Assembly: GCA_902812415.1 (NCBI GenBank)
Contig: CADDZJ010000024.1
Coordinates: 1-42,584, forward strand
Source of the DNA: Acidobacteriota bacterium
GTDB taxonomy: Bacteria; Acidobacteriota; Terriglobia; UBA7540
Reading direction: 5' to 3'
Length of the DNA stretch: 42,584 bases
Of the stretch, positions 11,403 to 38,821 are shown in pieces (position 1 is the first letter of the stretch; each line of letters starts with the position of its first letter). Both the position numbers and the translations under genes were made by a program. The notes beneath the pieces are model-generated. The model did not search any database and was not told where the DNA came from. It worked only from the letters and a program-made list of their open reading frames with translations.

Positions 11403-11408
11403 TCTTTC

Positions 11409-13591: not shown

Positions 13592-13592
13592 G

Positions 13593-14603: not shown

Positions 14604-14605
14604 GA

Positions 14606-15415: not shown

Positions 15416-15421
15416 TTCGAT

Positions 15422-16813: not shown

Positions 16814-16875
16814 AAACTTGCCATTAATTCTCAATCATCCGATTTGAAAAACGTCGGATTGGTTCTTTCCTGCGA

Positions 16876-18375: not shown

Positions 18376-18432
18376 CCGGACCTCACCGTTCTCTTTGCGC
18401 TTGGCCACCAACTGCGCGTCGCATAATGATTT

Positions 18433-21449: not shown

Positions 21450-21556
21450 CTTTCACTGCAAGCCATCGGTCTTCGCAAGACTTGAACGATCAAATTACCT
21501 GCAACAGCATTGGTGAGTGTCACAGGCAGGTTTGGAGGCTGCAAAAATTTTGTCAT
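21443..21556 (-). CDS. Possible 37-residue peptide coupled to the first radical SAM gene
   Basis: An ATG at 21556 overlaps the stop of the O-antigen ligase-like gene (ATGA, 21556-21553). It opens a 37-codon frame whose TGA (21445-21443) overlaps the first bases of the radical SAM gene that starts at 21449. The peptide starts MTKFLQPPNLPVTLTNAV, continues through a hydrophobic stretch (GNLIVQVL) and ends with a basic Arg-Arg-Pro segment, one Cys (residue 33) and a C-terminal Trp. Overlap at both ends is what translationally coupled genes show. It may be a leader that carries ribosomes into the radical SAM gene, or a precursor peptide for the radical SAM enzymes, or chance. There is no clear ribosome binding site of its own and no known precursor motif. 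Confidence 0.35.
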   Translation of the reverse strand: MTKFLQPPNLPVTLTNAVAGNLIVQVLRRPMACSERW

Positions 21557-22910: not shown

Positions 22911-24161
22911 CTAATAAATCTGCCGCGTCAAATCAAAACCCACGAACAAGTTTGCCGGCGTATCACCCGAAGGATTGCCGATGAATGTGGCCCGAGTGCC
23001 TGCGCGCTGCGAAACAGTGGTGCCTGGGCTGTTTGTGAAGCCAAACGTAAAGGCGTGCCGCCAGATCTTTTTCTGAATGCCGAACGAAAAAGCCGGTCGA
23101 TGGATTCCCAGGTCGGGGCCGTTGACGAGCGTTGGAATGACTTCGGCCACCAGTGCCACAGTTGGCCGAATGTCCAAAGCGCCGCCAATCCCTATCGAAA
23201 ACGTGTTGATGCCCGGGAGATCAGGCTGCGAGTCCGTCAGATTCCGCTGCGGACCGAGCAAGATTCGGTTGTCGAGGGAGACGGTCGGAACGACGTAGAT
23301 CTGCGCGCGCCTCGTCAGGCTGCGCGAGACAATACCTTCAAAATTGACCGTGAAATTATTCGAGAAGTCGTTGCGTCCTTCCACAGAGAACCGGAAGCCC
23401 GCGTTCAACGGCTTGCCATCGTGCTCATCAAGAAAATGGTAGGCGGCCATGAGTTGGATGGGGCGGCCAATGACGCTGGGTGAGCGGTAAGCGCTGACGG
23501 AAAATTTATCCGTGACCCCGTAACGCAAGCCAAACGACGCGATGCCGAAACCATCCAGTCCTCCTAGAATGGCGCCGCGCGCGGGCCCGGTGAAAGCCGG
23601 ATCAAACGCAAAGCGATGATTGAAATTGACGTAAAACCCGTGCTTGTCGAGGCGCCGGCCAGTGGGAAGACTGAAAAGATAATCATCTCCCGCTTCGTAA
23701 ACCTTGCTCTTTTCACTGCCGGGTTTTTCTTGAGCGGACATGGCCTCCGCCGCTGGGGCCTTCTGCTGTGTTGTGTCCTTAGCCAGTTGGTTTTTCGGCG
23801 TTTTCGAGGGTGTTGCCTCCTGATGATTGGACTCCGAGGGCAATTCCTTTACCGTATGGGAAGCCAAATCCACCAGATATTTCTTCCCATTGTGTTCAAT
23901 GATCAAAGTCGGGTTTGAGCCTGGAACAAGGGTCAGCCCCGTAGAAGCGGTATCGAGCGCGGCAGTGTGGCGCGCCATTGGAGCAGACAACTCCACCGGC
24001 GCTGAAACGTCTCCCTGCGGATTAGCTGCGAAGCTCCGGTTCGATGCGGAAGCAACACACATCATGAAGATGAAAGCCGCAGCCAGGATCTTTGAGCCGC
24101 GGGGTCGCAAAGCAGCTCGATATGATTGACATGACCGTGTAAGAATTCGCGCGTTTCTCAT
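22911..24161 (-). CDS. Exported DUF5777-like beta-barrel protein
   Basis: The frame extends to 24317, but the ATG at 24161 is chosen because GGAGG lies 7-8 bases upstream and because it starts a good signal peptide (hydrophobic ILAAAFIFMMCVASA, cleavage near residue 46). The product has 416 residues. After a low-complexity Ser/Lys/Glu/Ala-rich linker (about 95-160) comes a barrel-like region with alternating strands (DKHGFYVNFNHRFAFDP, FGLRYGVTDKFSVSAYRS, FNIGIG-type strands), ending in an aromatic residue (FVGFDLTRQIY), as outer-membrane barrels do. The resemblance to DUF5777 is by eye. It is the first gene of the minus-strand operon, directly upstream of an O-antigen ligase-like gene, and so could be an outer-membrane port or a surface receptor for the product. 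The promoter region carries one of the paired CTTTACAAACT boxes. Confidence 0.65.
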   Translation of the reverse strand: MRNARILTRSCQSYRAALRPRGSKILAAAFIFMMCVASASNRSFAANPQGDVSAPVELSAPMARHTAALDTASTGLTLVPGSNPTLIIEHNGKKYLVDLASHTVKELPSESNHQEATPSKTPKNQLAKDTTQQKAPAAEAMSAQEKPGSEKSKVYEAGDDYLFSLPTGRRLDKHGFYVNFNHRFAFDPAFTGPARGAILGGLDGFGIASFGLRYGVTDKFSVSAYRSPSVIGRPIQLMAAYHFLDEHDGKPLNAGFRFSVEGRNDFSNNFTVNFEGIVSRSLTRRAQIYVVPTVSLDNRILLGPQRNLTDSQPDLPGINTFSIGIGGALDIRPTVALVAEVIPTLVNGPDLGIHRPAFSFGIQKKIWRHAFTFGFTNSPGTTVSQRAGTRATFIGNPSGDTPANLFVGFDLTRQIY

Positions 24162-24212
24162 TCTTGCGTCCTCCATGCTTGAAAGAGATAACACGCCCCT
24201 CGCGCGCCATGA

Positions 24213-24240
24213 GTCAGTGTGTTGTAGCCAGTTTGTAAAG
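24213..24240 (-). promoter_or_regulatory. Regulatory box facing the minus-strand operon
   Basis: On the minus strand CTTTACAAACT (24240-24230) is followed by 13 bases and TGAC (24216-24213). Inside it, TTACAA and CTACAA form a direct repeat with an 11-bp period, the spacing used by PhoB/OmpR-family regulators. It lies 79 bases upstream of the DUF5777-like start. It could instead be a promoter element for an alternative sigma factor. Confidence 0.5.
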
Positions 24241-24323
24241 ATTTCGTCCGCCGAGTGATTGTTAAGCGCGCCTTTCGGGTTCGCCCTCCATCCGATTACC
24301 GCTCTCTGCCGTTTCACTCAAAA

Positions 24324-24351
24324 CTTTACAAACTCTCAACAGCGGAATGAC
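24324..24351 (+). promoter_or_regulatory. Regulatory box facing the plus-strand operon
   Basis: CTTTACAAACT (24324-24334) is followed by 13 bases and TGAC (24348-24351), the same arrangement as the minus-strand copy 84 bases away. The second half-site is weaker (CAACAG, sharing the ACA core at the 11-bp position). It lies 123 bases before the ATG at 24447. Confidence 0.45.
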
Positions 24352-24446
24352 ACGCCTCATGGCTCCAACTGCTAACGTCAGACTCCAGGCAGCCAAGAGC
24401 AAGCCGTCCGGCGACCGGCCGTCAGACTCTGCCTGGGTGCAATATC

Positions 24447-26480
24447 ATGACGTTCGTTCGAGAGCTACGAATGGGTTCGGGAGACTTCTTCAAGACACAG
24501 ATGCGGACGCCCCGGGAGGAGACTTTTCTGATCGCCAGTTTGACCTGTCATCTCAAAACGAATAGCGAGGCGATCCTGAAACACGCCCGAAAACACTTCA
24601 TTGCGCTTTCTTCAGACTTGGCTGCTTCGGACGTGACGTTTCGTTTCTGGGTGGATGACGCGGCTGCCTCGCAGCCTGCCTCGGAGAAGCCGCGCTTTAG
24701 AGGAGTTGAAGGCATCGTCTTTGCATCGTTCAACAGGCAGAACTTTCTTCTGATGAATCTGGCGAAGCGCTGTGTCATCGGGCGATTCACGCAAGACTTT
24801 GTGGAAGATGAGGCGGGTCTAGGCAGAACGGTATTCCCCATTGCTATTGCAACCCTGGGGCCTGCGAACGGAATCAGCGTGATTCACAGCGCCTGCGTCG
24901 TTGACAAACAGCAGGGTTTGCTGCTCGCTGGCGCCTCGGGATCAGGAAAGTCAACGCTCTCGCTGGCGCTCTGCCAATTAGGGTACGAGTGTCTCTCAGA
25001 CGATCGGACATATATTTCATCGCGCCACGGCAGGCTTCTGTGTTGGGGCGCCGGCGGTCGGCTGAAGCTGCGGCCTGAAGCTACAAAGCACTTTCCCCAC
25101 ATTCCGATGACGAGAGTTGCTGGCAATTCCGGCCCTGAGATTTTCGAGGTAGACCTTGCGCAGGATGGTTCCACGCGCCGTCATTGCTCTGAACCGAGTT
25201 GGATTGTATTCCTTGAACCCAAAGAGGGCGCGGGGCTGGAATTAACCGCGCTTTCTCCTTCCGATGCTGCCCTCCGGCTGGAAGACGGTGTGCTGCAAGA
25301 ATCAGAGCCGGCAGTCAAATGTCAGTTGGACGTGATTCAAAACCTGGTGAAACGCCCCTGCTATCTTTGTCGCTACAGTGGCCCGCCACAAGTCGTCGCT
25401 CGCGCGCTGGCTGATGCGTTCTTTTCAACAGTCGGAAAATCCCCGATCGCGCTTCCTGAAACTGTGAAAGCAAGCGGGCCTTCCACAACCACATATCGAG
25501 ACCCCTTGCGACGCTTCACTCCTCTCGTTCACCAAACTCCGATCCGGGTCCTGGGCCGGGACGGGATGCTTGAGACCAACTCCTTCCGGGTCAGGGAACT
25601 GGCGTGCAGGTTCCTTAAAAGCGGACTCCCTGACGCTACTTCCAGACTCTTCTTCACCTGGAGGATTGTGGCCGAAGAGGATCATCGCCCGAGGTCTCCT
25701 TGGCCTCAACCCAGGGGGCTTGCGGCGGAGGGCATGCAGTGCGTGAATTTGGGCCAAGCAGGTTTCGTCGCGGCTGATCTCGGTGCGTGTGAAATCGTCG
25801 GTTTTACGTCAGAGAGCCGCGTCGCGGATGCGCCCGGCTTCGCTGGTGTTTTTCTGGCCGCCATGGCTCACCTCACGGCAGCCGCATTGCGCCTGACGCC
25901 AATTTCATCAGCATGCATCTCCAGGCAAAACCGAGGTTTGCTTTTGCTGGGGCCTCCCGCTTGCGGGAAGACCACGTGCGCCTACGCTGCGCAAAACTTT
26001 GGCTTTGAAATCCACTCCGATATGGCGACTTTCCTGGAAGTGCGCGGCGGACGGCTGCATGCCTGGGGAGAATTCTGGCCAGCGCTCTTCCGCCAGGAAA
26101 CTGCACGCTTTCACCCGGAACTTCTGCGATTGGGCCAGCCTCTGGAGCATGAGAACGAGATTTTTATTTCCGTGGAAAAAAGCTGCCTGATGGCTCAGGA
26201 TGAAAGCAACGTCATACCGATCCTGGCGCTGGTTCTTGAACGAGGTAAGACAAAGATACCGCGCCTGACCCAACTACCCAAAGCCAAGTATCTAGAGATC
26301 TTAAAAGCAAGCTGCCCCTATGCCGAGGAGCCGCAGAACTTATCGCATCGAAGCGCCGTCCTAGCGGAGCTTCTATCGATTCCCGCTTATAAGCTCGCCT
26401 TTGGAGAAGACCCAGCGGAGGCGGCCATATTCTGCCGGAGCCTTTTTACCACCCACCGCAGACTGGAGGGCTTGCGATGA
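24447..26480 (+). CDS. Tandem HprK-like kinase (two HPr-kinase-type domains)
   Basis: The 677-residue protein contains two copies of an HPr-kinase-like module. The first has IHSACVVDKQQGLLLAG leading into Walker A GASGSGKST (162-170) and SDD (184-186). The second has ISSACISRQNRGLLLLG, Walker A GPPACGKTT (502-510) and SDM (524-526). HPr kinases use the conserved Asp pair for catalysis, so the second copy, which lacks the second Asp and has an altered P-loop, may be regulatory or inactive. HprK-related proteins next to nucleotidyltransferases occur in some polysaccharide and peptide-modification loci, where the phosphorylated partner is unknown. No PTS HPr is encoded in the window. It is the first gene of the plus-strand operon and overlaps the next gene by ATGA. 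A start at 24471 with GAGAG upstream is also possible. Confidence 0.8.
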   Translation: MTFVRELRMGSGDFFKTQMRTPREETFLIASLTCHLKTNSEAILKHARKHFIALSSDLAASDVTFRFWVDDAAASQPASEKPRFRGVEGIVFASFNRQNFLLMNLAKRCVIGRFTQDFVEDEAGLGRTVFPIAIATLGPANGISVIHSACVVDKQQGLLLAGASGSGKSTLSLALCQLGYECLSDDRTYISSRHGRLLCWGAGGRLKLRPEATKHFPHIPMTRVAGNSGPEIFEVDLAQDGSTRRHCSEPSWIVFLEPKEGAGLELTALSPSDAALRLEDGVLQESEPAVKCQLDVIQNLVKRPCYLCRYSGPPQVVARALADAFFSTVGKSPIALPETVKASGPSTTTYRDPLRRFTPLVHQTPIRVLGRDGMLETNSFRVRELACRFLKSGLPDATSRLFFTWRIVAEEDHRPRSPWPQPRGLAAEGMQCVNLGQAGFVAADLGACEIVGFTSESRVADAPGFAGVFLAAMAHLTAAALRLTPISSACISRQNRGLLLLGPPACGKTTCAYAAQNFGFEIHSDMATFLEVRGGRLHAWGEFWPALFRQETARFHPELLRLGQPLEHENEIFISVEKSCLMAQDESNVIPILALVLERGKTKIPRLTQLPKAKYLEILKASCPYAEEPQNLSHRSAVLAELLSIPAYKLAFGEDPAEAAIFCRSLFTTHRRLEGLR

Positions 26481-27817
26481 ACGACGCGTTGGCCTTTGAG
26501 ATCGTCAGGGCTTTGTCGGTCCAAGCTTTGCCGGAGGATGCCCCAGATCGACTCAGCCGCTTCTCAGTTGGTCAATGGCACCGGTCTCTCGGCTGGTTTC
26601 ATGCAGGCGGCATTGCCCTGTATTTCTGGCAGCGGATGAAATCGAGCGGCGCACAGGCTGTTGTACCTCGAAACATTCAGACGGTTCTGGAAAATTGTCT
26701 GGCGATGAATCGCGGGCGCCTGGAAGTGATGGTGGAAGAATTCCGGTCTGTTAATCGTGTGTTTCGAGAAGCCAGAATTCAGCACGCCGCGCTGAAAGGA
26801 TTTGCTCTGGTTCCTGACTACTGCCCGGACCCGGCGCTTCGAAATCAATATGACTTCGATTTCCTGGTCCCTGCCGAGAGCATGGAGTTGGCTGACCGAT
26901 ACCTTAAAGATGCCGGGTTCGCTCGGAAGGAGCGAAGCCGGTGCAGTCATCCGGTCGTTTATCTGGCTGCAAACCGGCAAACGCATCCGCCGGTGAGCCT
27001 CGAAGACATCTATTCCCCGCTCACCCATCGCTCCCTTGAAGTGCATACCCGCCTTTGGGAAGCGGAGGCTGAAAAGATTTCATTTGAACTGCCGGCGAAT
27101 CCGCACGCCCGCGTGTGGGAGAGGGATTGGAACGGCCTCAAATTCCACTCGCTGTCGCCTGAAGACACGCTGATCTTTCAAGTGATGCATGCCTTCCAGC
27201 ACATGCTGAACAACAAATGCCGCATCTCGATATTTCTGGAAATTGCCCGCTTCGTTCAAACACATTCCTCTGACGACGTGTTCTGGTTGAAATTTGCCGC
27301 TTTGCTAAGAGGGCGCAGGCGCTTGAGTGAAGCAACAGCGGTGGTGTTTTCTCTGGCTTTCCGTCTCTTCGGTCCGGAAATACCCAGCGAAATCAAAGTG
27401 TTGCTTGGCAGATGGCTGCGCCCGCCGATGGCTTTGTGGGTAAGCCGGTATGGACTTCGGCTGGCGCTGGGAAACTTCTCTTCCAGCAAAGACAGCCTCC
27501 ATCTCCACAGGCTTTTTGTGGAAGACCCTCGCCTGTGGGCAACCGTGAGGCGGCGCAAACTTTATCCGTTCCAGCGCCCGACGGTGCCGGAAGGTGGTCA
27601 CCCGGGGCGGTTGCGGGCGCGCTACAGGCAGATAATCCACGTTGCCAGACGAATTCATTTCCACGTCGGTTCGGCTCTTCATTACGTCTGGGGGCTGCCC
27701 GCGTGGAGGTATACGGTGCGAGCCTCAAACCGCGCCGGAAACGCCATGTCTCATATCGAGACGCTTGCCGGACCCGAAATCCCGAAGGCGGGCGCGCTCG
27801 GATTCAGGAGAAGATGA
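26477..27817 (+). CDS. NTP_transf_5-type nucleotidyltransferase
   Basis: The 446-residue protein shows the features of the uncharacterised nucleotidyltransferase family often found near HprK-like kinases. A region at about 105-150 has LKGFALVPDYCPDPALRNQY, followed by DFDFLV with the catalytic Asp-x-Asp, and then YLKDAGFARKE. Further on come HRSLEVHTRLWE and LSPEDTLIFQVMHAFQHML. The family is thought to transfer a nucleotide to a small molecule or protein, but no substrate is known. The gene overlaps both neighbours by four bases (ATGA at 26477-26480 and at 27814-27817), so it is tightly coupled to the tandem HprK-like kinase before it and the Wzz-like gene after it. The last 60 residues are basic and poorly matched to the family. 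Confidence 0.8.
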   Translation: MNDALAFEIVRALSVQALPEDAPDRLSRFSVGQWHRSLGWFHAGGIALYFWQRMKSSGAQAVVPRNIQTVLENCLAMNRGRLEVMVEEFRSVNRVFREARIQHAALKGFALVPDYCPDPALRNQYDFDFLVPAESMELADRYLKDAGFARKERSRCSHPVVYLAANRQTHPPVSLEDIYSPLTHRSLEVHTRLWEAEAEKISFELPANPHARVWERDWNGLKFHSLSPEDTLIFQVMHAFQHMLNNKCRISIFLEIARFVQTHSSDDVFWLKFAALLRGRRRLSEATAVVFSLAFRLFGPEIPSEIKVLLGRWLRPPMALWVSRYGLRLALGNFSSSKDSLHLHRLFVEDPRLWATVRRRKLYPFQRPTVPEGGHPGRLRARYRQIIHVARRIHFHVGSALHYVWGLPAWRYTVRASNRAGNAMSHIETLAGPEIPKAGALGFRRR

Positions 27818-29100
27818 TGATGGACTATGAGGCGGATCGCCACCTTGCCCGGCGGGTCATCAGATTGCGCCGCCATTTGCCATGGATACTCACAGCCAGC
27901 ACTTTATGCGCGCTGATTGCTCTGGGCGTGAGCCTCACGCTGCCCAAGATCTATCGCGCAACCACCGATGTGCTGGTCTCTGAATCGAAGATCGGGACTG
28001 GGACGGAGAATACGCTGTGGCAGTATGCGCTGATCCGCACCTATCTCCCCTTTGTGGACAGTGATTCGCTCCTCAAGAAGGCGCTTCACGACCTCCATCT
28101 TGACGGACCTCCTTACCATTTGACGGTCTATCGCTTCCGCAAGAAGGGCTATCTGGATGTGGATATACCCAAGCACACGCGGTTGGTCGAAATTAATGTG
28201 GAATTTCCCGACGCGCAGATCGCGGCCCGGCTTGCCAATTACCTCGCGCAGCAGGCAGTCGCGTTCAACGAGCGATTGATGGCAGCCGACACCGCAAGCA
28301 CGCAGCTTTTTCTCAAAACGAGCCTTGACCAGGCCCGAGACCGCCTGAAGCGGGCCGCAGCCGAGCGGCTGAACGTGAAAAAAAAGGCAAAGATTGAGGA
28401 TCAAGAAAAGGAATTGAGCATCCTTCTTGCGGAGAAGGCCGACTTTTCGACTCAGCTTGAGCAACTCTCCATGGCCGTCAGCCAAAACCTGGCGCGGGCG
28501 AAAGCATTCTCTGAGGAGCTCAGAAAGGAGCCGGAAATTCTGAACCTGCAGAAAAGCTTGGTTTCGGATCCGTTCCTGCAACATGCGGTGGACAAAATCG
28601 GCAAAGTCGAAGATCCAAAACTCTCTGTGGTCGAACAGACGTTAAGCAAAAGCCATGAGGCGTTTCAGACCCAATATGTAGCCGCTGTGGCAGACGCTCA
28701 AGGGGAGCAGGCGGGGCTGAGGGCCGGTCGCTCGAAATTAGCGGAAATCAATCGGAACCTCGATCGCGTCTTGTCCCAGATCGCCCGAAGCCGGAATGAT
28801 ATCGAGATGGTCGACCGGCAGTATGCCCTGGCCCAGCAAGCTTACGCAACGGCCAGCCAGGATTATCTCAATGCCTCAATTTCTGTTTCTTCAAAGTCTC
28901 AGGATCTCAAGCAACTGGCTCCTGCAACCGTGCCCGAACAGCCGGTTCGGCCCAAGATGCTGCTGAACACTATCCTGGCGGGCATCCTTGCGTTGGTGGT
29001 ACTCAGCGCAGCGGCGCTGCTGGTTGAAGGCGTTCGTGAAAGCGCGCTGTATCTTCCTGTTTCCATTAACGAGAGGACAGGAACTACGGCGGGTCGGTAA
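27817..29100 (+). CDS. Wzz-type polysaccharide chain-length determinant
   Basis: Three consecutive ATG codons (27814, 27817, 27820) follow AGGAG; 27817 gives the best spacing. The 427-residue product has a membrane segment near the N-terminus (about 20-40: ILTASTLCALIALGV), a periplasmic region with PKIYRATTDVLV, a long coiled coil (about 150-340, with KIEDQEKELSILLAEKADF), and a second membrane segment near the C-terminus (about 385-408: LLNTILAGILALVVLS). The layout is that of Wzz/GNVR polysaccharide co-polymerases, which set chain length and couple synthesis to export. There is no cytoplasmic tyrosine-kinase domain. A longer in-frame extension to 27412 lies in the upstream coding sequence and is a shadow. 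It precedes the Wzx flippase gene by 5 bases. Confidence 0.88.
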   Translation: MMDYEADRHLARRVIRLRRHLPWILTASTLCALIALGVSLTLPKIYRATTDVLVSESKIGTGTENTLWQYALIRTYLPFVDSDSLLKKALHDLHLDGPPYHLTVYRFRKKGYLDVDIPKHTRLVEINVEFPDAQIAARLANYLAQQAVAFNERLMAADTASTQLFLKTSLDQARDRLKRAAAERLNVKKKAKIEDQEKELSILLAEKADFSTQLEQLSMAVSQNLARAKAFSEELRKEPEILNLQKSLVSDPFLQHAVDKIGKVEDPKLSVVEQTLSKSHEAFQTQYVAAVADAQGEQAGLRAGRSKLAEINRNLDRVLSQIARSRNDIEMVDRQYALAQQAYATASQDYLNASISVSSKSQDLKQLAPATVPEQPVRPKMLLNTILAGILALVVLSAAALLVEGVRESALYLPVSINERTGTTAGR

Positions 29101-29105
29101 TTCAC

Positions 29106-30554
29106 ATGGCGACACTCACCCGAAGCGAAGGAAAGCGAACCATTACCAATGCTGCTTCGATCTTCAGCGCTGAAGCCGCCAGCCGGCTCACAACTTTCGC
29201 CGTGGCCATGGTGATCGCCCGACGATTCGGCCCGCAGGCGCTTGGCCAGTATGCCTACGCGCTGGCGCTGGCGGGCATTCTGCTCGTTCTGCCGGATATG
29301 GGGTCACACCTCTTGACAACTCGAGAGCTTGCGGCACAACCCGAACGGCTACCGGACATGCTCTGGCGCCTGTTCTTCCTGAAGGCAGGGCTTGTGGCAC
29401 CGGTCGTTATGATTGTAGCCCTTTTGATAGAGGTCGGAATTCATGATGAGGGACGACGACTGCTCTTCTTGATCTTGGCGGCGCGCATGGTCCTGCAATC
29501 GATTTCACTGGGCTGCGCAGCCGTTTTTAAGGCCTTTGAACGCATGCACTACGTGGCGCTGACGCAAATGGCGAATGCCGCAGTCTGCTTTCTGGCGCTT
29601 GCCGCCTGTCTGCTACTCGGAACAAATCTCATGATGGTCGTAGGCGCTCTGGCGCTAGGGCAGGTGTTTGAAACGTGGTTAGCCTGGAAAATTCTCTTCC
29701 AGCATTTCAATCCCGGCGTGATTCCGAGGTGGGATTGGAAGCCTTTATTCAACCTGTTAGTGATGGCGGCGCCAATTGGCATTGTAACGCTTCTGCAAAC
29801 CATCAGCCTGCGGCTGGACGTTCTGGTTCTCAGCATCTTCGCTCCCAATCACGAGCTGGGTCGCTTACAGGCCGCCGCCTGGTTTATGACGCTCAGCTTT
29901 CTGCTCGCCACGCTCCTCATGACGGTTTTGTTCCCAAAACTCGCGCGGCTCTGGCAGGTTTCTGGGCTGGTGAGAGTTCGTTACATTGAGAGCCTGCTCA
30001 AGCATGGAATGCTTCTGGCCGGTCTTCTGGCCTTGTTGGTGTGGATTACGGCTCCGTATCTTCTTGAGGCTTTCTTTGGAAAATCTCTCGGCTCGGCGAC
30101 CATTCTGCTGCATATCGTGACTCCGGCGCTTCCTTTCGTATTCGTCAATACGGTGTTGTTTTATGTCTTCATCGCTGCCGATCGGCGCAAGACTTATCTG
30201 GCCTTGTTGGCTTTGAGCCTCACGGGCGGCTTGATCGTGGCGTTCGATCTGACGGCACGTTGGGGAGCGAACGGGGCCGCATGGGCAGACGTCGCGCGCG
30301 AGCTTGCGGAATGCGCTCTTCTGCTCTTTTGTCTCTACCGCGAGTCATTGATTCCCAATCTGGCTCCGGCAATGTTCAAAGCGGCGCTGTGCGGAGTTTG
30401 TTTCACCACGCTCGTTCTCCTGGTCGGGCAGATTCACACGGGCGAAGCGTGCGCTGCTGTGTGGAGCTTTGCGATTGTCGTCGGGACGTTGGTTTTTACC
30501 GGCTTGCCGAAATGGCGGCAAATCGTGTTGCTGGCGGCAGGAGGGCATGTATGA
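29106..30554 (+). CDS. Wzx-type polysaccharide flippase
   Basis: The 482-residue protein has about 12-14 hydrophobic segments and lies in the MOP superfamily of oligosaccharide flippases. The N-terminal part (TFAVAMVIARRFGPQALGQY) is characteristic of Wzx proteins. It probably moves lipid-linked repeat units from the cytoplasmic to the periplasmic face of the inner membrane. It overlaps the O-antigen ligase-like gene by ATGA (30551-30554) and follows the Wzz-like gene after 5 bases, the usual neighbours of a Wzx/Wzy pathway. The ribosome binding site is weak, so translation may depend on coupling. Confidence 0.9.
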   Translation: MATLTRSEGKRTITNAASIFSAEAASRLTTFAVAMVIARRFGPQALGQYAYALALAGILLVLPDMGSHLLTTRELAAQPERLPDMLWRLFFLKAGLVAPVVMIVALLIEVGIHDEGRRLLFLILAARMVLQSISLGCAAVFKAFERMHYVALTQMANAAVCFLALAACLLLGTNLMMVVGALALGQVFETWLAWKILFQHFNPGVIPRWDWKPLFNLLVMAAPIGIVTLLQTISLRLDVLVLSIFAPNHELGRLQAAAWFMTLSFLLATLLMTVLFPKLARLWQVSGLVRVRYIESLLKHGMLLAGLLALLVWITAPYLLEAFFGKSLGSATILLHIVTPALPFVFVNTVLFYVFIAADRRKTYLALLALSLTGGLIVAFDLTARWGANGAAWADVARELAECALLLFCLYRESLIPNLAPAMFKAALCGVCFTTLVLLVGQIHTGEACAAVWSFAIVVGTLVFTGLPKWRQIVLLAAGGHV

Positions 30555-32035
30555 GCCGCGAAACAAGGGTTTTCGCTGGATTGAACGGCTGGAGTTGGCC
30601 GGCGCTCGTTACGGTCACTCTGCTCATCAGCGGCCTTACAATCGTTCTGGCTCCCTTGTCCGCCGTGGCGATCGCGCTCGGCGTATCCGTTTATCTCCTG
30701 TTCGCTTTGGCTTCAATTAAAGAGCCCCTGCTTTACGTCACAGTTTTCCTGGCAGGTCTGATTGCCCTTCCGCCCGTATATCTCGAAAGACTGGGCGCAG
30801 TACCCATCTATCCTACAACGTTGCTTCTCCCCATCGGAGCGGGCATCGTCGTATGCCGCCTGCCAGACTTCAAGTGGCGGTTCGATGCTATTGCAGGCGC
30901 TTTTACCTGCTTTTTATTGTTCACGGGCGTTTCGCTTCCTTTTGTCTGGATATTTTCAGATAGCCAGGTGGGTTGGGGCAGTTTGCTGCGCTGGCTCATG
31001 CTGGCGCAGGCCGTTTTTATTTACGTCATCGCCCGGGGAGGTATGAGGGCTGAAGAAACTCGCCTCGAAACGCGATTGATGCCGGCGCTCTTCGCTGTTG
31101 CCGCCGGTTCTGCAATCTATGGTGTTATTGACTTTGTTTGGCCAATTCCCATTCCTCATCCGGCTGCTGATCAGTTTATCTGGCTGGGCAGCGGCATCAT
31201 CCGGCGAGCGCAGGGAGTGTTCTTTGAGGCTTCCAGCTTTGCAAATTTGTGCGGCTTCTTTCTTGCAGCAGCCGCGGCGGCCTTTCTAACCGGCAAGGAA
31301 CGAGCGGTTAGGCTCTCACAAGCATGGCTACTGGCGCTCATTGCTGTCCTCATGCTTGCTGTCTTTGTATCATTCTCGCGCAGCGCCTGGGGATGCGTCC
31401 TGACAACCATTTTGGTGTTCGGAGCGCTTTTTGGGCGAGTCCGCGCCGGCAGATTGGCCTGGTTTCTTTTTGCGTTGTGCCTTCCTCTTTTCCTCTTGCC
31501 GCTCTATTCGCCGGAGCTATGGAACTATTTTTTGATTAACCGCGTCGGTCACTTCACCCAGATTTTTACCGATCCCAACCTGGTATCCAGCGGAAGGATC
31601 GACACGTGGCGGCGCATCGCCGGAGTGCTTCAGGAGCATCCGTATTATTTTATTTTCGGCGTGGGCTACAAGTCCCTGCCGCGCACACGCCTCTTTCAGC
31701 AAGCCATCATCACAGATAACGGATTCCTGAATCTGCTTCTTGAAACAGGAATGGCAGGACTTGCCAGTTTTGTTTTCTTCCTCTCGGAGACTTTCCGCAC
31801 TTTCTGGCGGCTCGCGCATTCCCAGAACATAAAAACGGCATTCTGGGGCGGCCTTTTGTTCTCGTTCTGGTGCGGCGAGTGCGTCCAGTTGATGGCGGCG
31901 GATGCTTACACCTATTGGCGGAACATGGCGGTTTTCTTGACCCTGATGGGTATCGTGATGAATTGGGCTGAACGTGACGAAGCAGGCGGGCAGATCAGCG
32001 ATTTCCCCGGACGGCCGCGAACGGAGGGAAGATGA
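30551..32035 (+). CDS. O-antigen ligase/polymerase-like membrane protein (Wzy_C type)
   Basis: The ATG at 30551 has AGGAGG 6 bases upstream; a longer frame to 30260 only overlaps the flippase gene. The 494-residue protein has 11-12 hydrophobic segments and motifs of the O-antigen ligase/polymerase family, for example VFVSFSRSAWGCVLTT and the loop with EHPYYFIFGVGYKSLPRTRL. It probably joins repeat units (Wzy) or transfers finished chains to an acceptor. It lies between a Wzx flippase and a GT4 glycosyltransferase, so polymerase is the likelier role here. The paralogue at 21553 belongs to the divergent operon. The stop codon overlaps the next gene by ATGA (32032-32035). Confidence 0.87.
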   Translation: MSRETRVFAGLNGWSWPALVTVTLLISGLTIVLAPLSAVAIALGVSVYLLFALASIKEPLLYVTVFLAGLIALPPVYLERLGAVPIYPTTLLLPIGAGIVVCRLPDFKWRFDAIAGAFTCFLLFTGVSLPFVWIFSDSQVGWGSLLRWLMLAQAVFIYVIARGGMRAEETRLETRLMPALFAVAAGSAIYGVIDFVWPIPIPHPAADQFIWLGSGIIRRAQGVFFEASSFANLCGFFLAAAAAAFLTGKERAVRLSQAWLLALIAVLMLAVFVSFSRSAWGCVLTTILVFGALFGRVRAGRLAWFLFALCLPLFLLPLYSPELWNYFLINRVGHFTQIFTDPNLVSSGRIDTWRRIAGVLQEHPYYFIFGVGYKSLPRTRLFQQAIITDNGFLNLLLETGMAGLASFVFFLSETFRTFWRLAHSQNIKTAFWGGLLFSFWCGECVQLMAADAYTYWRNMAVFLTLMGIVMNWAERDEAGGQISDFPGRPRTEGR

Positions 32036-33270
32036 GTAAAACATCCATTATGATTCTTGACCAGCAGAGTTGGCGCGGGGGCGGGCAGCGAGCGCTGGGG
32101 CATGTGTTAGCAAGTCTTGAAGAAGATTTTCGTCTCACCGTGGTTTTTCCAGATTGCGGCCCATTCCAAAGGGAGTTGCAGGATCGAGGGTATGAGACTT
32201 TGACCTACCCACTCGGGTCTTATCAACCTGGCCGCAAACCCGCGCGCGAAAAGGCAGCCTTTGCAATACGCAGCGCCGTCTGCGCCTTGCGGCTGACGAG
32301 AGCGATCATCGCAAGGAAATCAGGGCTTATTTATGTTAACGGGCCGCGGTGCCTTCCCTTTGGGGTCGCGGCGTCATGGCTTACGCAGACGCCTGTGTTG
32401 TTTCACCTGCACAACGCCCTTTCGCGCCGCAGCGACATCCTGCTAATTTCCCGGTTGGCGAGGTATGTTGAAAAGATCGTTGTGTGCTCAAATGCCGCAG
32501 CGGACTGTTTACTCAAGGCTAGCCCTGAACTCAAAGCCAAAATCGTCTTGGTGCGCAATTGTGTACACCCAGCGCCGAGAGATGTCGAGCCCGCGGCGCT
32601 TGAGAGTTCGCCGTCCCGCGAGGCACAGTTCACGATCGGAATTGTGGGCCGCATTACCGAAGATAAAGGCCACCATATCTTATTGAAAGCAGTGGCTGGA
32701 TTGCGTCCTGAGATTAGGGATCAACTTCGGCTCCTTTTTGTGGGAGGACCAGGTCCTGAATGCCCGAGAGATGAAGCATACGTCCACCGCCTTAAATCGC
32801 TTGCGTATGAGATGAGATTGGAAGGGCGTATCGTCTGGACCGGTCATCAACCGGATGTGGAGCCGTATTATCGATTAATGGATGTGGTCGCAATTCCATC
32901 CACTGCCACGGAAGGGGGCGGGCCCACGATGGTCTCTCTCGAGGCCATGCAACGCGGGATCCCGGTGATTGTTTCCGGCTGCGGAGGCAATGCTGAATGC
33001 TTGCGGGACAACGTTAACGCGCTGGTGGTGCCCCCCGGAGATGCAATTGCTTTGGCCGGCACCTTGATGAGAATGTTCAAGGATTCTGGGTTGCGCCAAC
33101 GCCTGGCCGTTGCGGCCAGGCAGACCATCGAGCAACAATTTTCTCCGGTCGTTTTCTCATCCGCCATCCATCAGCTCGTGTCGGAACGATGCCTGCCCGT
33201 GAAAGATGCCGAGCCAGCTTTGAGGATTGCCGGGCAGCCTAAGCCCTCCAACCAGGAGTTATTGCCTTAG
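32032..33270 (+). CDS. Family 4 glycosyltransferase
   Basis: The 412-residue protein has the GT-B fold of GT4 enzymes. The N-terminal half starts with LDQQSWRGGGQRALGHVLAS (nucleotide/acceptor side), and the C-terminal half has FTIGIVGRITEDKGHHILL, LLFVGGPGP and the donor-binding TEGGGPTMVSLEAMQRGIPV with VSGCGGNAE. It probably transfers a hexose or similar sugar from a nucleotide sugar onto a lipid-linked intermediate in the cytoplasm. It is the only glycosyltransferase in the window, so the rest of the repeat-unit synthesis must be encoded elsewhere. It ends the operon; the converging gene on the other strand starts 11 bases later. No terminator is visible between them. Confidence 0.92.
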   Translation: MSKTSIMILDQQSWRGGGQRALGHVLASLEEDFRLTVVFPDCGPFQRELQDRGYETLTYPLGSYQPGRKPAREKAAFAIRSAVCALRLTRAIIARKSGLIYVNGPRCLPFGVAASWLTQTPVLFHLHNALSRRSDILLISRLARYVEKIVVCSNAAADCLLKASPELKAKIVLVRNCVHPAPRDVEPAALESSPSREAQFTIGIVGRITEDKGHHILLKAVAGLRPEIRDQLRLLFVGGPGPECPRDEAYVHRLKSLAYEMRLEGRIVWTGHQPDVEPYYRLMDVVAIPSTATEGGGPTMVSLEAMQRGIPVIVSGCGGNAECLRDNVNALVVPPGDAIALAGTLMRMFKDSGLRQRLAVAARQTIEQQFSPVVFSSAIHQLVSERCLPVKDAEPALRIAGQPKPSNQELLP

Positions 33271-33281
33271 CGTCCGATCCA

Positions 33282-34055
33282 TTATTCAGGCTCGCCGTAA
33301 AGCGGCGAAACGGAGATGACAGGATCATAGTCACGGCCGTATTTGTTCTTGTGGTGCGCCAGCAGGTCGCCAGACGCCTGGATTCGAAACGTTCCGAGGC
33401 TGTGGGTATCTTCGTCGATCGTCACTTCACGATCAAGGTTTTTAAGAGTTGCCGGAAGCGCGCGCTCCGACCATATTTGGATTTGATATCGCCCATCGGG
33501 CACCCCCGTGATATGCACTTTACCGGCCTTGTTCGTTACTCCATAATAAGGCGTCTTCATCGTCACAACCACTGCGCTCATCTGCGGGTGGATGTTGCAA
33601 AAAATAAAGGATACGCCGGGGCGATCAAACTTCACGCTACGAGTCGATCCTGCCGCATAGAGCCCCAAATCAAATCGCTTCCCATCGAAAAGCGAAAACA
33701 CATTATGAAAAAAGGGGTCCCTGTTTGGGAAATCCACCAGCGATCCGACCGGTACGACTAAAAGGTGGGGATCGAAGCGTTTGTGGAATTGCACGAGTTG
33801 GAAATGGCGCGGAAGCAATTGAAGGGCGGTCCCCGCCTGTGTGATGGCCGGACCTGAGAGCGGGGTAAGCCAAAGAACCACGTTCGAGGCGTCACGCACA
33901 GCGACTTTTTTGGATGAAGCTGCATACTCGACGTGCGCCTCTACGGTCACCGCATCGAGAACGCCTGAAAGGAGACCTAAGAGCGCAACCACCGCAAGCG
34001 CCCCAACTGCTGCGCAGGTTGCCCTTCCCAAAAGCCTGTTAAAAGAGCACTCCAA
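33282..34055 (-). CDS. Exported cupredoxin-like (type 1 copper) protein
   Basis: The frame is open to 34220, but that would overlap the upstream gene by 180 bases. The TTG at 34055 gives a 257-residue product with a hydrophobic export signal (about 15-33) and a 17-base overlap with the preceding stop; the exact start is uncertain. The copper ligands of a plastocyanin-like site are visible: H117 (DPFFHNVFSLF), C153 (FIFCNIH), H156 and M159 (HPQM). A C-terminal domain with TNKAGKVHITGVPDGRYQI resembles carboxypeptidase-regulatory folds. It is likely periplasmic and electron-carrying or copper-sensing. It sits directly downstream of a porin-like gene, probably in one operon, and near a diheme cytochrome c and a two-component system. 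Confidence 0.7.
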   Translation of the reverse strand: MECSFNRLLGRATCAAVGALAVVALLGLLSGVLDAVTVEAHVEYAASSKKVAVRDASNVVLWLTPLSGPAITQAGTALQLLPRHFQLVQFHKRFDPHLLVVPVGSLVDFPNRDPFFHNVFSLFDGKRFDLGLYAAGSTRSVKFDRPGVSFIFCNIHPQMSAVVVTMKTPYYGVTNKAGKVHITGVPDGRYQIQIWSERALPATLKNLDREVTIDEDTHSLGTFRIQASGDLLAHHKNKYGRDYDPVISVSPLYGEPE

Positions 34056-35637
34056 TCCCCAAATTGATCTGGTTCGCCCGGTAAGGTTCTTCATTGACGT
34101 CGGTGGTCCAAAGACGCCGGTATTCCAGGGAGAGCAGCAGGTTCGATCGCAGGTGATAGATAAAGTTGACCAAGCTGCCTTGGTTCTTCTCAATCGCAGC
34201 ATTAAAGTAGCTTTGCGCATTCAGAAACCGGTGAAGATCCGCAGCGAATGATTGATCCTCGCCAAACGCTCCGTTGAACTCAAGCCGTTCAGTTGGATGA
34301 AACTTCAGTTGCCCCCACCCCCCGGCGGAGTTCAAACCTAAGAGAGAGGTTGCAGCACTGATTAAAGGACCATTGTATAATACGCTTCTTCCTATTCCAC
34401 CTCCCAGGCCGCCAATGGCGTAGCCGCGATAAAACTCACCGGAAAGGTTGAACCAGCGGCCTAAGGGCAAGTCCCAGTCTGCTGTTCCTGCCCAGCCATC
34501 GAGTTTCCGTCCGAAACCCCAATTTTCCGGCGCGTAATACCCTCCCACACCCACCGTGGCGGTCTGGCCAAAGGCTGAGGCGCTCCAGGCTATCCGTGTC
34601 GCGTAGCCAGGCTGTCCGGATCGCTCCCCGGCCTGCGGGGTTCGATAAAAGTTGTAGATTGGCGGTTCACCCGTCAGGGAATCCAGAATGCCACCCTGCA
34701 GGATCAGCCTCGAGGTTTCGGACAAATTAAAGCGGCGCTCAAGACGAATCTGCGGCGCCCATGCCCAGAGGTTTCCGGAGTAGGAGAAAGCGGGCTCAGC
34801 GAGAGAGGCCAGCGAGGTGGGGGAGAGGGGCGAGAAGAAGAGCATGTCTTGCCCTGCTTTCAGCGAGGTATTTGACCAGTCCATTTGGAAGGTCGCTGTG
34901 CGCATTCGCATAAGCCCAGCCGTAACCCCATTCAGGGCGTTGGGGAACCCTCCAAAAAAGTCCATCTGAACTTCGCCATGAGTCCTGGCTCCGGCGAGCG
35001 CCGGACCGGAAACATCGATTCCAACCATCGATTGCCGGACAGTCGCGCCAAACGTGGCATTGGAATCCAAAGGGCCGCGCTGTTGGGCGAAACGGGGAAC
35101 GTCCTGGTTGTCAACGCTCCCTCGATTGCTGAATACGTTGAGCAAGGCCATCCCTGACAGGCGGACGCGATATTTGGAAGCGCTTTCGACCTTGGTCTGA
35201 TATTGGTCATCAACTTTACTTTCCAAAAGCTGCTGCTGTTCTTCCAGACTCGACAGCCGATTCCGGAGATTGTTATTAGGGTTGGCTGACGCGTTTGGTT
35301 CAGACTGCACGGGAAGCGCGGCACCGTGTGTGCTGGCAGGGGACGCCGATGCAGGCTTTGGGGGGGAGGCGAGAGCCAATAACCGGGCTCGTGCATCGCG
35401 GAGTTCCGCGCGGAGTTTTTCAGTTTCTGCCTGCATGGAGTCCATCCGGGATTGCATGTATGCCATGCTGAGTTGTAGCGCCCGAATCTGCGCCTGTAAG
35501 TCACCCGCTGTGCCTGAAGTCACATTTGCAGGCCGCGGCGCTGGCGCATTCTGCCCTAGGGACAATGCGGCGGCGCTCAGTAAAATGGCCGCGCAGATAC
35601 CCAGTTCTCGAAGAATCCTGAGGCTTCGTTCACCCAT
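34039..35637 (-). CDS. Porin-like outer-membrane protein with N-terminal coiled coil
   Basis: The ATG at 35637 has AGGAGG 5 bases upstream, so the extension to 35664 is not used. The 532-residue product has a signal peptide (about 1-28), a coiled-coil region (about 40-75: LQAQIRALQLSMAYMQSRMD), a Pro/Ala/Ser-rich linker and a second short helix (NLRNRLSSLEEQQQLLESKV). A long beta-barrel-type region (about 135-532) follows, with alternating aromatic strands and a C-terminal Phe (GIGVLF). This arrangement resembles trimeric porins whose coiled coil reaches peptidoglycan. The cargo is unknown. The gene is transcribed divergently from the response-regulator gene, and a cupredoxin-like gene overlaps its end, suggesting a role linked to copper or redox. 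A sigma70-like promoter lies upstream. Confidence 0.7.
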   Translation of the reverse strand: MGERSLRILRELGICAAILLSAAALSLGQNAPAPRPANVTSGTAGDLQAQIRALQLSMAYMQSRMDSMQAETEKLRAELRDARARLLALASPPKPASASPASTHGAALPVQSEPNASANPNNNLRNRLSSLEEQQQLLESKVDDQYQTKVESASKYRVRLSGMALLNVFSNRGSVDNQDVPRFAQQRGPLDSNATFGATVRQSMVGIDVSGPALAGARTHGEVQMDFFGGFPNALNGVTAGLMRMRTATFQMDWSNTSLKAGQDMLFFSPLSPTSLASLAEPAFSYSGNLWAWAPQIRLERRFNLSETSRLILQGGILDSLTGEPPIYNFYRTPQAGERSGQPGYATRIAWSASAFGQTATVGVGGYYAPENWGFGRKLDGWAGTADWDLPLGRWFNLSGEFYRGYAIGGLGGGIGRSVLYNGPLISAATSLLGLNSAGGWGQLKFHPTERLEFNGAFGEDQSFAADLHRFLNAQSYFNAAIEKNQGSLVNFIYHLRSNLLLSLEYRRLWTTDVNEEPYRANQINLGIGVLF

Positions 35638-35841: not shown

Positions 35842-35869
35842 GCAAAATACAGGGAAAATCCGGCTATTT

Positions 35870-35888
35870 TTGTAATTAAATTGTAAAG
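35870..35888 (-). promoter_or_regulatory. PhoB/OmpR-type direct repeat near the response-regulator gene
   Basis: On the plus strand TTGTAA occurs at 35870-35875 and again at 35881-35886, exactly 11 bp apart, with AG following; on the minus strand this reads CTTTACAATTTAATTACAA. The 11-bp period is the usual spacing of half-sites for OmpR-family response regulators. The box can serve the regulator gene itself, the porin-like operon, or both. Confidence 0.55.
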
Positions 35889-35983
35889 ATTTTATTAGTT
35901 TCTGTGTTTGAACGAAAAGAATGGTGTACGCTTTAGAGGGTTGTAGTCTGCCGTTGGACAGATTGCCTTGGGCCGGGGAGGGT

Positions 35984-36019: not shown

Positions 36020-36697
36020 ATGGAAAAGCTTCTGATTATTGAAGACGACCGAGCGATTCACAAAGCCTTGAAGCAATTGTTCGAGTCCGAGGGCTATGCA
36101 ATCGAATTCGCTACGGACGGCTCGGCGGGCCTCGCCGCCTTCCGCGCCGCGCCGCCCTCTCTGGTGATTCTGGATTTGAAGCTGCCGCAGATGCCCGGGC
36201 GCGAGGTTTGCCGCGAGATTCGTAAAGTGTCGCCGTCCCTGCCGATTATCATTCTGAGCGCCACAACGGATGAGGTTGACAAGGTGCTCCTTCTTGAGTT
36301 GGGCGCCGATGATTACGTCACGAAGCCCTTCAGCCCCAAGGAACTTCTGGCGCGGGTGCGAACTTCCCTGCGTCGACTCCAACGCGGAGTCATCATCGAC
36401 CAATATGATTTTTCCGATGTTTCCATCGACTTCGGCAAAATGGAGCTTAAGCGCGCGGGAAATCTCATTGAAATGACTCCCCAGGAGTTCAAGATTGTGA
36501 AGTACTTCGCGCAACATCCCGAGCGCGTCATTTCAAGGGATGAGCTGCTGAACGAGGTATGGGGTTACGATTGTTACCCATCAACCCGCACAGTGGATAA
36601 CCACATCCTGAAGCTGCGCCAGAAGCTGGAAGCAGATCCGGAGCGTCCCGTGCACTTCAGGACTGTCCACGGAGTAGGCTACAAATTTGTGCCTTAG
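36020..36697 (+). CDS. OmpR/PhoB-family response regulator
   Basis: The 225-residue protein starts at the ATG at 36020; a longer frame to 35921 lacks support. The receiver domain (1-120) has the acidic pocket (IEDD at 7-10), the phosphoacceptor D52 (VILDLKLPQMPG), T82/T83 and K102 (YVTKPF). The C-terminal winged-helix domain (about 130-225) has DELLNEVWGYDCYPSTRTVD and GVGYKFVP, as in OmpR/PhoB proteins that bind direct repeats as dimers. It is followed after 75 bases by a histidine-kinase gene and is probably its partner. A direct repeat with 11-bp spacing lies upstream of the gene, and similar boxes lie before the two polysaccharide/radical SAM operons, so it is the leading candidate for their regulator. 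Confidence 0.97.
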   Translation: MEKLLIIEDDRAIHKALKQLFESEGYAIEFATDGSAGLAAFRAAPPSLVILDLKLPQMPGREVCREIRKVSPSLPIIILSATTDEVDKVLLLELGADDYVTKPFSPKELLARVRTSLRRLQRGVIIDQYDFSDVSIDFGKMELKRAGNLIEMTPQEFKIVKYFAQHPERVISRDELLNEVWGYDCYPSTRTVDNHILKLRQKLEADPERPVHFRTVHGVGYKFVP

Positions 36698-36772: not shown

Positions 36773-38527
36773 ATGCGCAGAGTCAAACTCAGGACGAAGC
36801 TGCTATTTTCCCTGATCTTTATTTCCAGCGTGCTGGCGTGCGCCACCGTCTTCATCGTGCGCTTGAAAGTGGAGCGCAGGGTGCGAGAGGACCTCAATGA
36901 GGCGCTCCACAATTCCGTCGTCACCTTCCAGAACTTTCAACGCCAGCGCGAAGGGACGCTGGCCCGGTCCGCCGGTCTGCTGGCGGACTTGCCGAACCTT
37001 CGCGCTTTGATGACCACGCAGGATGCCGCCACCATTCAGGACGCCTCGGCGGAACTCTGGCGGCTGGTTAGAAGCGACCTGTTCGTGCTGGCTGACCGCA
37101 CCGGTAAACTGGTGGCGCTGCACACCTCGGCAAGTGGCTTCACGATGGAAGCCGCGCAGATCTCCATGCAGCGCTCGCTCGCGGCGGGCGAGAGCCGCGA
37201 CTGGTGGTTTGGCAAAGGCCGTCTCTATGAGGTTTTTCTCCAACCCATTTATTTCGGGCGTCCTTCGGAAGGGCTGCTGTTAGGCATTCTGGGCGTCGGC
37301 TACGAGGTGGACACAGGCGTCGCCCGGGAGGTGAGCCAGGCAGCCTCCAGCCAGGTGGCGTTTCGATATGGAAAAAGCCTTGTGGTGAGCACCCTTTCAC
37401 GCGATCAGCAGGCGCAATTGGAATCGCAGATCGATCTTGTGCCAGACAGCGATCGCGGCGCTGCTGAATTTAAGCTCGGCGCTGAACGCTTCGTGAGCGC
37501 TTCGGTGAAGCTGCCCCCTGACGGAAGTCACCCGGTTAGCCTTACCGTTCTCAAGTCATATGACCGCGCCACCCAGTTTCTCAGCGGCCTGAACCGCTGG
37601 CTGTTTGGGGTGGGGCTGGCGGCCATCCTTGCCGGCTTCGGGCTGGCGATCCTGATGTCCCACACCGTCACGCGCCCGCTTGAAAATCTGGTTTCCGGCC
37701 TGCACGCGCTGGAAAAGGGCGACTTTGACTATCCCCTTCTGCCCACGACCGGAGATGAAGTGGGCGAGCTCACAGGCGCGTTCCGCCGCATGCGTCAGAG
37801 CCTGCGGACAACGCAGAACGAGCTGCTGCACGCCGAAAGGCTGGCAACGATGGGCCGCATGGCCAGCGCCATCTCTCACGACCTGCGTCATCCCCTGACG
37901 GCCATTCTCGCCTACGCCGAGTTTCTTTCCGAAGGCAATCTGCCGGAATCCCAGCGCAAGGACTTCTACGAAGAAATCCGCCAGGCTGTGAACCGCATGT
38001 CAGACCTGATCAGCTCGCTTCTTGAGCTCTCAAAGGCCCGCGAGATTAACCGGCCCGTCCTTTGCAGCATTGAGGAAGCGGTTCGCCGCGCGATCCAGGC
38101 CGTGCAGGCTCGCCCGGAATTTCGCACCATTGGAATCAGCGTGTGGCATGAAGAAGGGCCATGTCAGGGGTGGTTTGACCCGATCAAACTGGAGCGCGTC
38201 TTCCATAACCTTCTGCTGAACGCCTGCGAGGCGGTCTCGCAGGAATCCGGACTGATTGAGGTGCGAGTCCGGCGATCGCCAGACGGCTTTGAGGTTCGCA
38301 TTGCCGATAACGGCCCCGGAATTCCTGAATCGATCCTGGGAACCATCTTTCAGCCTTTTGTCAGCTATGGGAAAGAAAATGGAACAGGGCTGGGCCTGGC
38401 CGTTGTCCAGAAGATGGTGCAGGATCACGGAGGCGACATCTCTGTTGAGCAAACCGGTCGTACCGGAACCGTATTTAAGTTAATATTCCCTCCCGGGTCT
38501 CCGCCCGAAGTAGCCGCACGGGTCTGA
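36773..38527 (+). CDS. Membrane sensor histidine kinase
   Basis: The 584-residue protein has an N-terminal membrane segment (about 8-32), a periplasmic sensor region (about 33-260) with no recognised domain but with a Cache-like length, a second membrane segment (about 276-300), and a HAMP linker (about 300-352). The HisKA domain has the phosphoacceptor H369 (AISHDLRHPLTAILAY). The HATPase domain has the N-box (FHNLLLNACEAV), G1 (DNGPGIPE) and G2 (GTGLGLAV). All catalytic motifs are intact. The signal is not known, but the kinase is flanked by genes for envelope, copper and cytochrome proteins, so a redox or envelope signal is reasonable. It probably phosphorylates the response regulator encoded just upstream. 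Confidence 0.95.
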   Translation: MRRVKLRTKLLFSLIFISSVLACATVFIVRLKVERRVREDLNEALHNSVVTFQNFQRQREGTLARSAGLLADLPNLRALMTTQDAATIQDASAELWRLVRSDLFVLADRTGKLVALHTSASGFTMEAAQISMQRSLAAGESRDWWFGKGRLYEVFLQPIYFGRPSEGLLLGILGVGYEVDTGVAREVSQAASSQVAFRYGKSLVVSTLSRDQQAQLESQIDLVPDSDRGAAEFKLGAERFVSASVKLPPDGSHPVSLTVLKSYDRATQFLSGLNRWLFGVGLAAILAGFGLAILMSHTVTRPLENLVSGLHALEKGDFDYPLLPTTGDEVGELTGAFRRMRQSLRTTQNELLHAERLATMGRMASAISHDLRHPLTAILAYAEFLSEGNLPESQRKDFYEEIRQAVNRMSDLISSLLELSKAREINRPVLCSIEEAVRRAIQAVQARPEFRTIGISVWHEEGPCQGWFDPIKLERVFHNLLLNACEAVSQESGLIEVRVRRSPDGFEVRIADNGPGIPESILGTIFQPFVSYGKENGTGLGLAVVQKMVQDHGGDISVEQTGRTGTVFKLIFPPGSPPEVAARV

Positions 38528-38746: not shown

Positions 38747-38764
38747 TTTACATCACTTTTACCT
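38747..38764 (+). promoter_or_regulatory. Weaker direct-repeat box before the cytochrome c gene
   Basis: TTTACA (38747-38752) is followed 11 bp later by TTTACC (38758-38763), and CGAC lies at 38770-38773, the position of TGAC in the two main boxes. It is 75 bases upstream of the ATG at 38822 and points toward it. It matches only the core of the box, so it may be chance. Confidence 0.3.
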
Positions 38765-38821
38765 TCCTCCGACAGTCTGGGAGCCCTGCGGAAATAAGAT
38801 GTTGTCTGCGGGGTGAATCGT

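Follow-up and report, generated by a model that had tools for sequence, protein, structure and literature searches.

Tandem 11-bp repeats as candidate operators of an OmpR/PhoB-type response regulator at a cell-surface-like gene cluster of an Acidobacteriota genome

Gene content of the contig

The window, that is, the whole stretch of DNA analyzed, is one entire contig of 42,584 nucleotides (42.6 kb) from an Acidobacteriota genome of 4,844,903 bases. Its genes and intergenic repeats are given below by position.

9055..22902, minus strand: an O-antigen-ligase-like protein, five B12-binding radical SAM proteins, three methyltransferases, an amidohydrolase and a SPASM protein
22911..24176, minus strand: DUF5777 beta-barrel protein (PF19089, 1.5e-15; start inferred), heading the long minus-strand run
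24212..24250, plus strand: box A, AGTCA-N6-TGTAG-N6-TGTAA-N6-CGTCC, in the gap separating the minus-strand DUF5777 gene from the plus-strand HprK-related gene
24314..24352, minus strand: box B, TGTCA-N6-TGTTG-N6-TGTAA, 95-133 bp upstream of the HprK-related gene
24447..33270, plus strand: HprK-related kinase, NTP_transf_5, Wzz-like, Wzx-like and Wzy-like proteins and a glycosyltransferase
33282..34034, minus strand: cupredoxin-like protein, from a reading of the sequence
34039..35637, minus strand: porin-like outer-membrane protein, from a reading of the sequence
35860..35898, plus strand: box C, TGTAATTAAAT-TGTAAAGATTT-TATTAG, in the porin/regulator intergenic region
36020..36697, plus strand: OmpR/PhoB-type response regulator, receiver and winged helix (PF00072, 2e-30; PF00486, 3.1e-27)
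36773..38527, plus strand: sensor histidine kinase (weak dCache_3 sensor match, HAMP, HisKA, HATPase)
38748..38774, minus strand: possible box D ahead of the cytochrome c gene (39-65 bp upstream), TGTCG-N6-GGTAA-N6-TGTAA
38813..41970, plus strand: cytochrome c and an LptD-like barrel, from a Pfam search

The gene order of both arms of the cluster (9055..22902 and 24447..33270) is kept in relatives, and the cluster as such (9055-33270) is found, whole or in part, in G087, a genome of another family, as well as in 12 relatives within the family. The radical SAM proteins scored below every listed cut-off of NCBIfam, the porin-like and cupredoxin-like proteins had no match in Pfam, and the Rfam search of the window and five loci returned nothing at the gathering score. 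A search of one open literature collection found nothing on DUF5777 or this cluster, nor on footprinting of two-component systems in Acidobacteria. A dispersed repeat of approximately 110 bases with the core TTTGGAAATTGTTCGT was seen outside the window, in at least 30 copies among the matches listed and with no Rfam match (examples at L039, L040, L044, L045, and L056).

The regulator and its kinase

The receiver and Trans_reg_C domains of the regulator at 36020 score above the Pfam cut-offs and the protein aligns end to end with MtrA, which places it in the OmpR/PhoB type. Orthologs at E<=1e-85 were identified in 21 of the 39 family genomes, and a truncated copy in G032 (7.1e-78) brings the number to 22. 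The regulator is 84% identical to the cluster regulator of G022, and within its own genome it has no close paralogue as a competitor, the second-best regulator being only 43% identical. The recognition-helix region is nearly unchanged across the orthologs; a change in this helix was therefore dropped as the explanation for TGTCA versus TGTAA half-sites. The regulator/kinase pair groups with that of G008 and G024 in both trees (support 98/91 and 100/99); these two genomes likewise have the pair diverging from the porin gene, and both lack DUF5777.

Relatives that bear names are mostly Acidobacteria, and the closest named relative of the regulator (67%) lies on a contig whose title gives a Bifidobacterium breve MAG (L128), by its looks a mislabelled bin. 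G022 holds two such regulators (L065 and L095), 84% and 66% identical to that of the window; one is beside DUF5777, the other stands with a kinase before the HprK-related gene, and a box is found beside each.

The repeat upstream of the regulator gene

The initial annotation had described TTGTAA repeated at an exact 11-bp period between the porin-like and regulator genes, and this was confirmed, as TTGTAATTAAATTGTAA is read at 35870-35886. The exact TTGTAA-N5-TTGTAA pattern is found once on the forward strand and never on the reverse strand of the 4,844,903 bases, with no match to the reversed-pattern control, while pairs with up to two mismatches number four in the window against 1.00 expected, a count reached by two of 100 shuffles. 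The decamer said to be common to this box and position 24233 turned out to be a 12-mer, TTGTAAAGATTT, whose only window copies are at 24233 and 35881 (0.01 expected; none of 100 shuffles reaches two). The promoter scan did not reproduce the sigma70 start that had been placed approximately 72 bases downstream of the box for the porin-like operon; the sole promoter-like site near 35870 runs from 35787 to 35759 on the minus strand, with 9/12 matches (1 versus 0.5 in shuffles).

Two TTGTAA words were rejected as the operator unit for being too short, the operator comprising three to four half-sites. A 16-base pattern with up to two mismatches gave 101 genome matches against 93 with its reversed control; hence, specificity resides only in the longer model. 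The repeat core of box C (35871-35898) precedes the regulator start by 122-149 bp and has a weak half-site before it.

Architecture and conservation of the boxes

The putative operator reads GTCA-TGTAG-TGTAA-TGTTA, with three or four half-sites at an 11-bp period. A strongly conserved repeat of this kind was found in the regulator promoter of 12 relatives, in 11 of them between DUF5777 and the regulator, while in G012 these genes lie far from each other and a separate box A accompanies each of them. The regulator/kinase pair of box-bearing relatives lies between the boxes or borders one. A relaxed triple of TGTMR at 11 bp with up to two mismatches, written after the sites were seen and thus descriptive, the held-out tests being the relatives-built models, matches six times in the window versus 0.97 expected (none of 100 shuffles reaches six). 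The matches are at 24212, 24223 (overlapping 24212), 24326 (minus), 35871, 38748 (minus), and 2771; the first five fall on the four places named in the initial annotation, and the last is taken as chance.

A 34-column PWM was built on the regulator promoters of six relatives, excluding the window. Its top window site is box C (35869, 24.4 bits), followed by box A (24221, 21.4 bits) and a minus-strand site at 24310 (13.2 bits), the next best being 7.5 bits. The maximum over 60 simulated windows was 15.1 bits, so the site at 24310 is not significant in this test alone. With the main PWM, boxes A and B score 31.6 and 29.7 bits, respectively.

If DUF5777 starts at 24176, as is likely, box A lies 36-74 bp upstream of this start. 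Box B is oriented opposite to the HprK-related gene downstream of it, and both its place and its orientation are kept in the relatives' HprK-related promoters. Copies of box B are present in G006, G013, G020, G022, G023, G026, and G012, with TGTCA-type copies in G061 and G032, that is, in nine relatives and the window among the 14 genomes with an HprK-related gene; none was seen within 450 bp of this gene in G018, G004, G036, and G062. Footprinting had been proposed as the check on the four repeats, and its outcome was graded: conservation is strong for 24212 and 24326, which in relatives border the orthologous regulator/kinase pair, moderate for 35870, and weak for 38748. The 176 upstream regions of other cluster genes include nine that score at least 13 half-site positions, six of which coincide with box-like repeats where the cluster is rearranged; a single repeat in G036 accounts for four of these.

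The conservation of boxes A and B could also reflect core promoter elements or overlapping promoters instead of an operator, since the intergenic regions are short and divergent and their AT-rich words would resemble -35 elements. This explanation is very improbable: the words recur three to four times in helical phase, box B is oriented opposite to its downstream gene, a constant -10 distance from the box was looked for and is absent in most promoters, and family genomes lacking the regulator have no strong match. A fixed -10 spacing, seen in a few promoters only, was accordingly dropped as part of the box.

Genome-wide and class-wide searches

A sequence-only covariance model built from 17 relatives' sites, the window excluded, was run over 39 family genomes, with the best 150 first-look candidates scored per genome. 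In the window's own genome, it gave three matches at E<=1, boxes A, B, and C, all inside the window. Box A is the best match of the genome (24213-24247, E 2.5e-5, window held out) and box B the second best (24320-24351, minus strand, E 8.5e-4), while box C (35871-35897, E 0.785, 12.4 bits) is at the genome-wide noise level. A reversed-letter control model reached a best E of 0.025 across the 39 genomes and 14.7 bits in the window's own genome. Boxes A and B are thus clear by the genome-wide model, which taken alone gives box C no significance.

At E<=1e-3, the strong motif was identified in 13 of the 39 family genomes, all 13 of which carry both the regulator and DUF5777; the hypergeometric probabilities of this co-occurrence, ignoring kinship, are 6e-5 for the regulator (22/39) and 1e-8 for DUF5777 (15/39). 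Twelve of these genomes gave training sites, so the window's own genome is the sole held-out positive among the family. No strong motif was found in those of the 39 genomes without the regulator, and nine regulator-bearing family genomes are without it, including two (G018 and G004) with DUF5777 and HprK-like genes. Among 299 class genomes at E<=0.01, 15 have a match, namely, the same 13, G087, and G167. In G087, which belongs to another family and is outside the training set, the same cluster is present, with a regulator 66% identical beside the box; the G167 match is weak and lies without homologous genes nearby. Weak copies of the motif also occur near YceI-DUF2141 genes in G026 (E 0.002; L209) and G013 (E 0.005; L210), both of the same genus, and may extend the regulon.

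The boxes might be operators of a different OmpR/PhoB-type regulator encoded elsewhere, with the pair at 36020 controlling the porin side only. The pair lies beside the porin gene and not inside the cluster, as in the DUF5777-less G008 and G024 with which it groups in the trees, and the box in its own promoter matches the cluster boxes imperfectly. Such a division is nevertheless improbable, given the near relationship of the 36020 regulator to the G022 cluster regulator, the 43% identity of the next candidate in the genome, the nearly unchanged recognition helix, and the confinement of the strong motif to family genomes having a 36020-type regulator.

Box C, the porin gene, and the cytochrome promoter

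Box C lacks the first half-site of the main motif, and this, together with its genome-wide E of 0.785, would agree with a chance AT-rich repeat, the operators then being A and B only. That reading is doubtful in view of the uniqueness of the exact pair in the genome, the 12-mer in common with box A, and the first rank of box C with the regulator-promoter PWM. The two closest relatives, G008 and G024, also have TGTCA-type triple repeats in the regulator/porin intergenic region (TGTCAATTATTTGTCAAAAATCTGCCA and TGTCAATTTTTTGTCAAAAATGTGTCA), oriented with respect to the genes as box C is; the distances to the regulator start are unequal, about 70 bp versus 150 bp. A repeat of this type is probably the ancestor of box C or was replaced by it. 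Box C is a moderately supported candidate operator in the regulator's own promoter, on account of these TGTCA-type repeats at the corresponding place.

The porin gene is found in 20 of the 39 genomes, all within the 22 that have the regulator. Only three of the 20 porin promoters, the window included, reach at least 13 of the 15 half-site positions, and all three are shared with a divergent regulator. Independent control of the porin was rejected, as the other 17 orthologous promoters, away from the regulator, are without the repeat. Since porin orthologs have the repeat only when divergent from the regulator, the box at 35870 would be associated more closely with the regulator gene than with the porin.

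Box D has 14 of the 15 half-site positions and scores -2.8 bits with the main motif. Three of 10 full-length orthologous cytochrome promoters reach at least 13 positions, all with one orientation: that of the window, that of G020, and one of the two from G012. The expectation is 0.008 per region; because the window's own site is among the three, there are two independent cases. The count omits the partial or edge copies G020b, G020c, and G030 (scores 10, 9, and 10), and the scan of porin and cytochrome promoters passed over two short upstream regions. Box D is a possible operator.

Proposed regulation

The window's regulator/kinase pair adjoins the porin gene, and both cluster operators (A and B) are still in place. 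It is proposed, with a probability of approximately 0.8, that the regulator at 36020 and its adjoining kinase act on the tandem repeats at their own promoter, at A, at B, and perhaps at D. The neighboring kinase, responding to a presumed signal, would activate the regulator, presumably by phosphorylation, and the regulator, arranged head to tail in dimers or larger complexes, would bind direct repeats whose half-site is about TGTMA and recurs three or four times at an 11-bp period. Action at 35860-35898 would amount to autoregulation and may also affect the divergent porin-cupredoxin genes. At box A, the regulator would act, with either sign, on the promoter of the DUF5777/radical-SAM operon, at box B on that of the HprK-like/polysaccharide operon, and the cytochrome promoter (38748) is perhaps weakly bound. 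In many relatives, the pair stands between A and B; with the pair beside the porin gene here, A and B are presumably served in trans.

The initial annotation had assigned an OmpR-family regulator to the local 11-bp repeats and four transcription units to its control. Footprinting supports the first of these assignments well, the unit being corrected to three to four half-sites; of the transcription units, those at A and B are supported and that at C moderately so, while D is weak and the porin makes no separate case.

Most of the repeats are conserved in related bacteria, and the operator and regulator look like a known kind, a real but ordinary gene switch, probably controlling an unstudied cell-surface gene cluster. 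A broader reading has about even odds: an undescribed regulon devoted to an uncharacterised B12-radical-SAM/polysaccharide/envelope-redox cluster. Its operators of three to four repeats would accompany the cluster, in one case into a different family, and keep their place when the regulator pair relocates, so that adjacent control became distant in this lineage; in genus g11, the regulon would reach YceI-DUF2141 genes elsewhere in the genome. The analysis yields a testable operator and regulator for a large conserved cluster in little-studied bacteria, which could help find its signal and product. It also shows, by example, how a model from other genomes largely recovered sites that had been picked out visually.

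Comparison with known systems

MtrA is the best relative of the regulator in solved structures and in NCBIfam, where the regulator scores 221.6 bits against a cut-off of 300 (NF040689) and so is not itself an MtrA. OmpR/PhoB regulators bind as tandem dimers on 11-nt direct-repeat units (PMC4415409; PMC4832192). The M. tuberculosis PhoP is described as a tandem dimer on 7-bp motifs with a strict 4-bp spacer (PMC4832192); the present regulator scores 125.1 bits to PhoP chains, well below MtrA, and its targets differ. The PHO box is composed of 11-nt repeat units with seven conserved and four less conserved positions and the E. coli core CTGTCAT (PMC4415409). TGTCA-type half-sites occur in the present operators too, but these have three to four half-sites with TGTAA/TGTAG variants, their targets are not phosphate genes, and the regulator scores 204.7 bits where the PhoB cut-off is 296.2 (TIGR02154). 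Most sites of E. coli ArcA have three to five direct repeats, mainly 11 bp from center to center (PMC3798270). The regulator belongs to another subfamily than ArcA (NF008378, 147.5 bits, cut-off 334) and has other targets, but boxes A and B, with three to four half-sites at 11-bp spacing, fit the multi-repeat architecture of ArcA sites.
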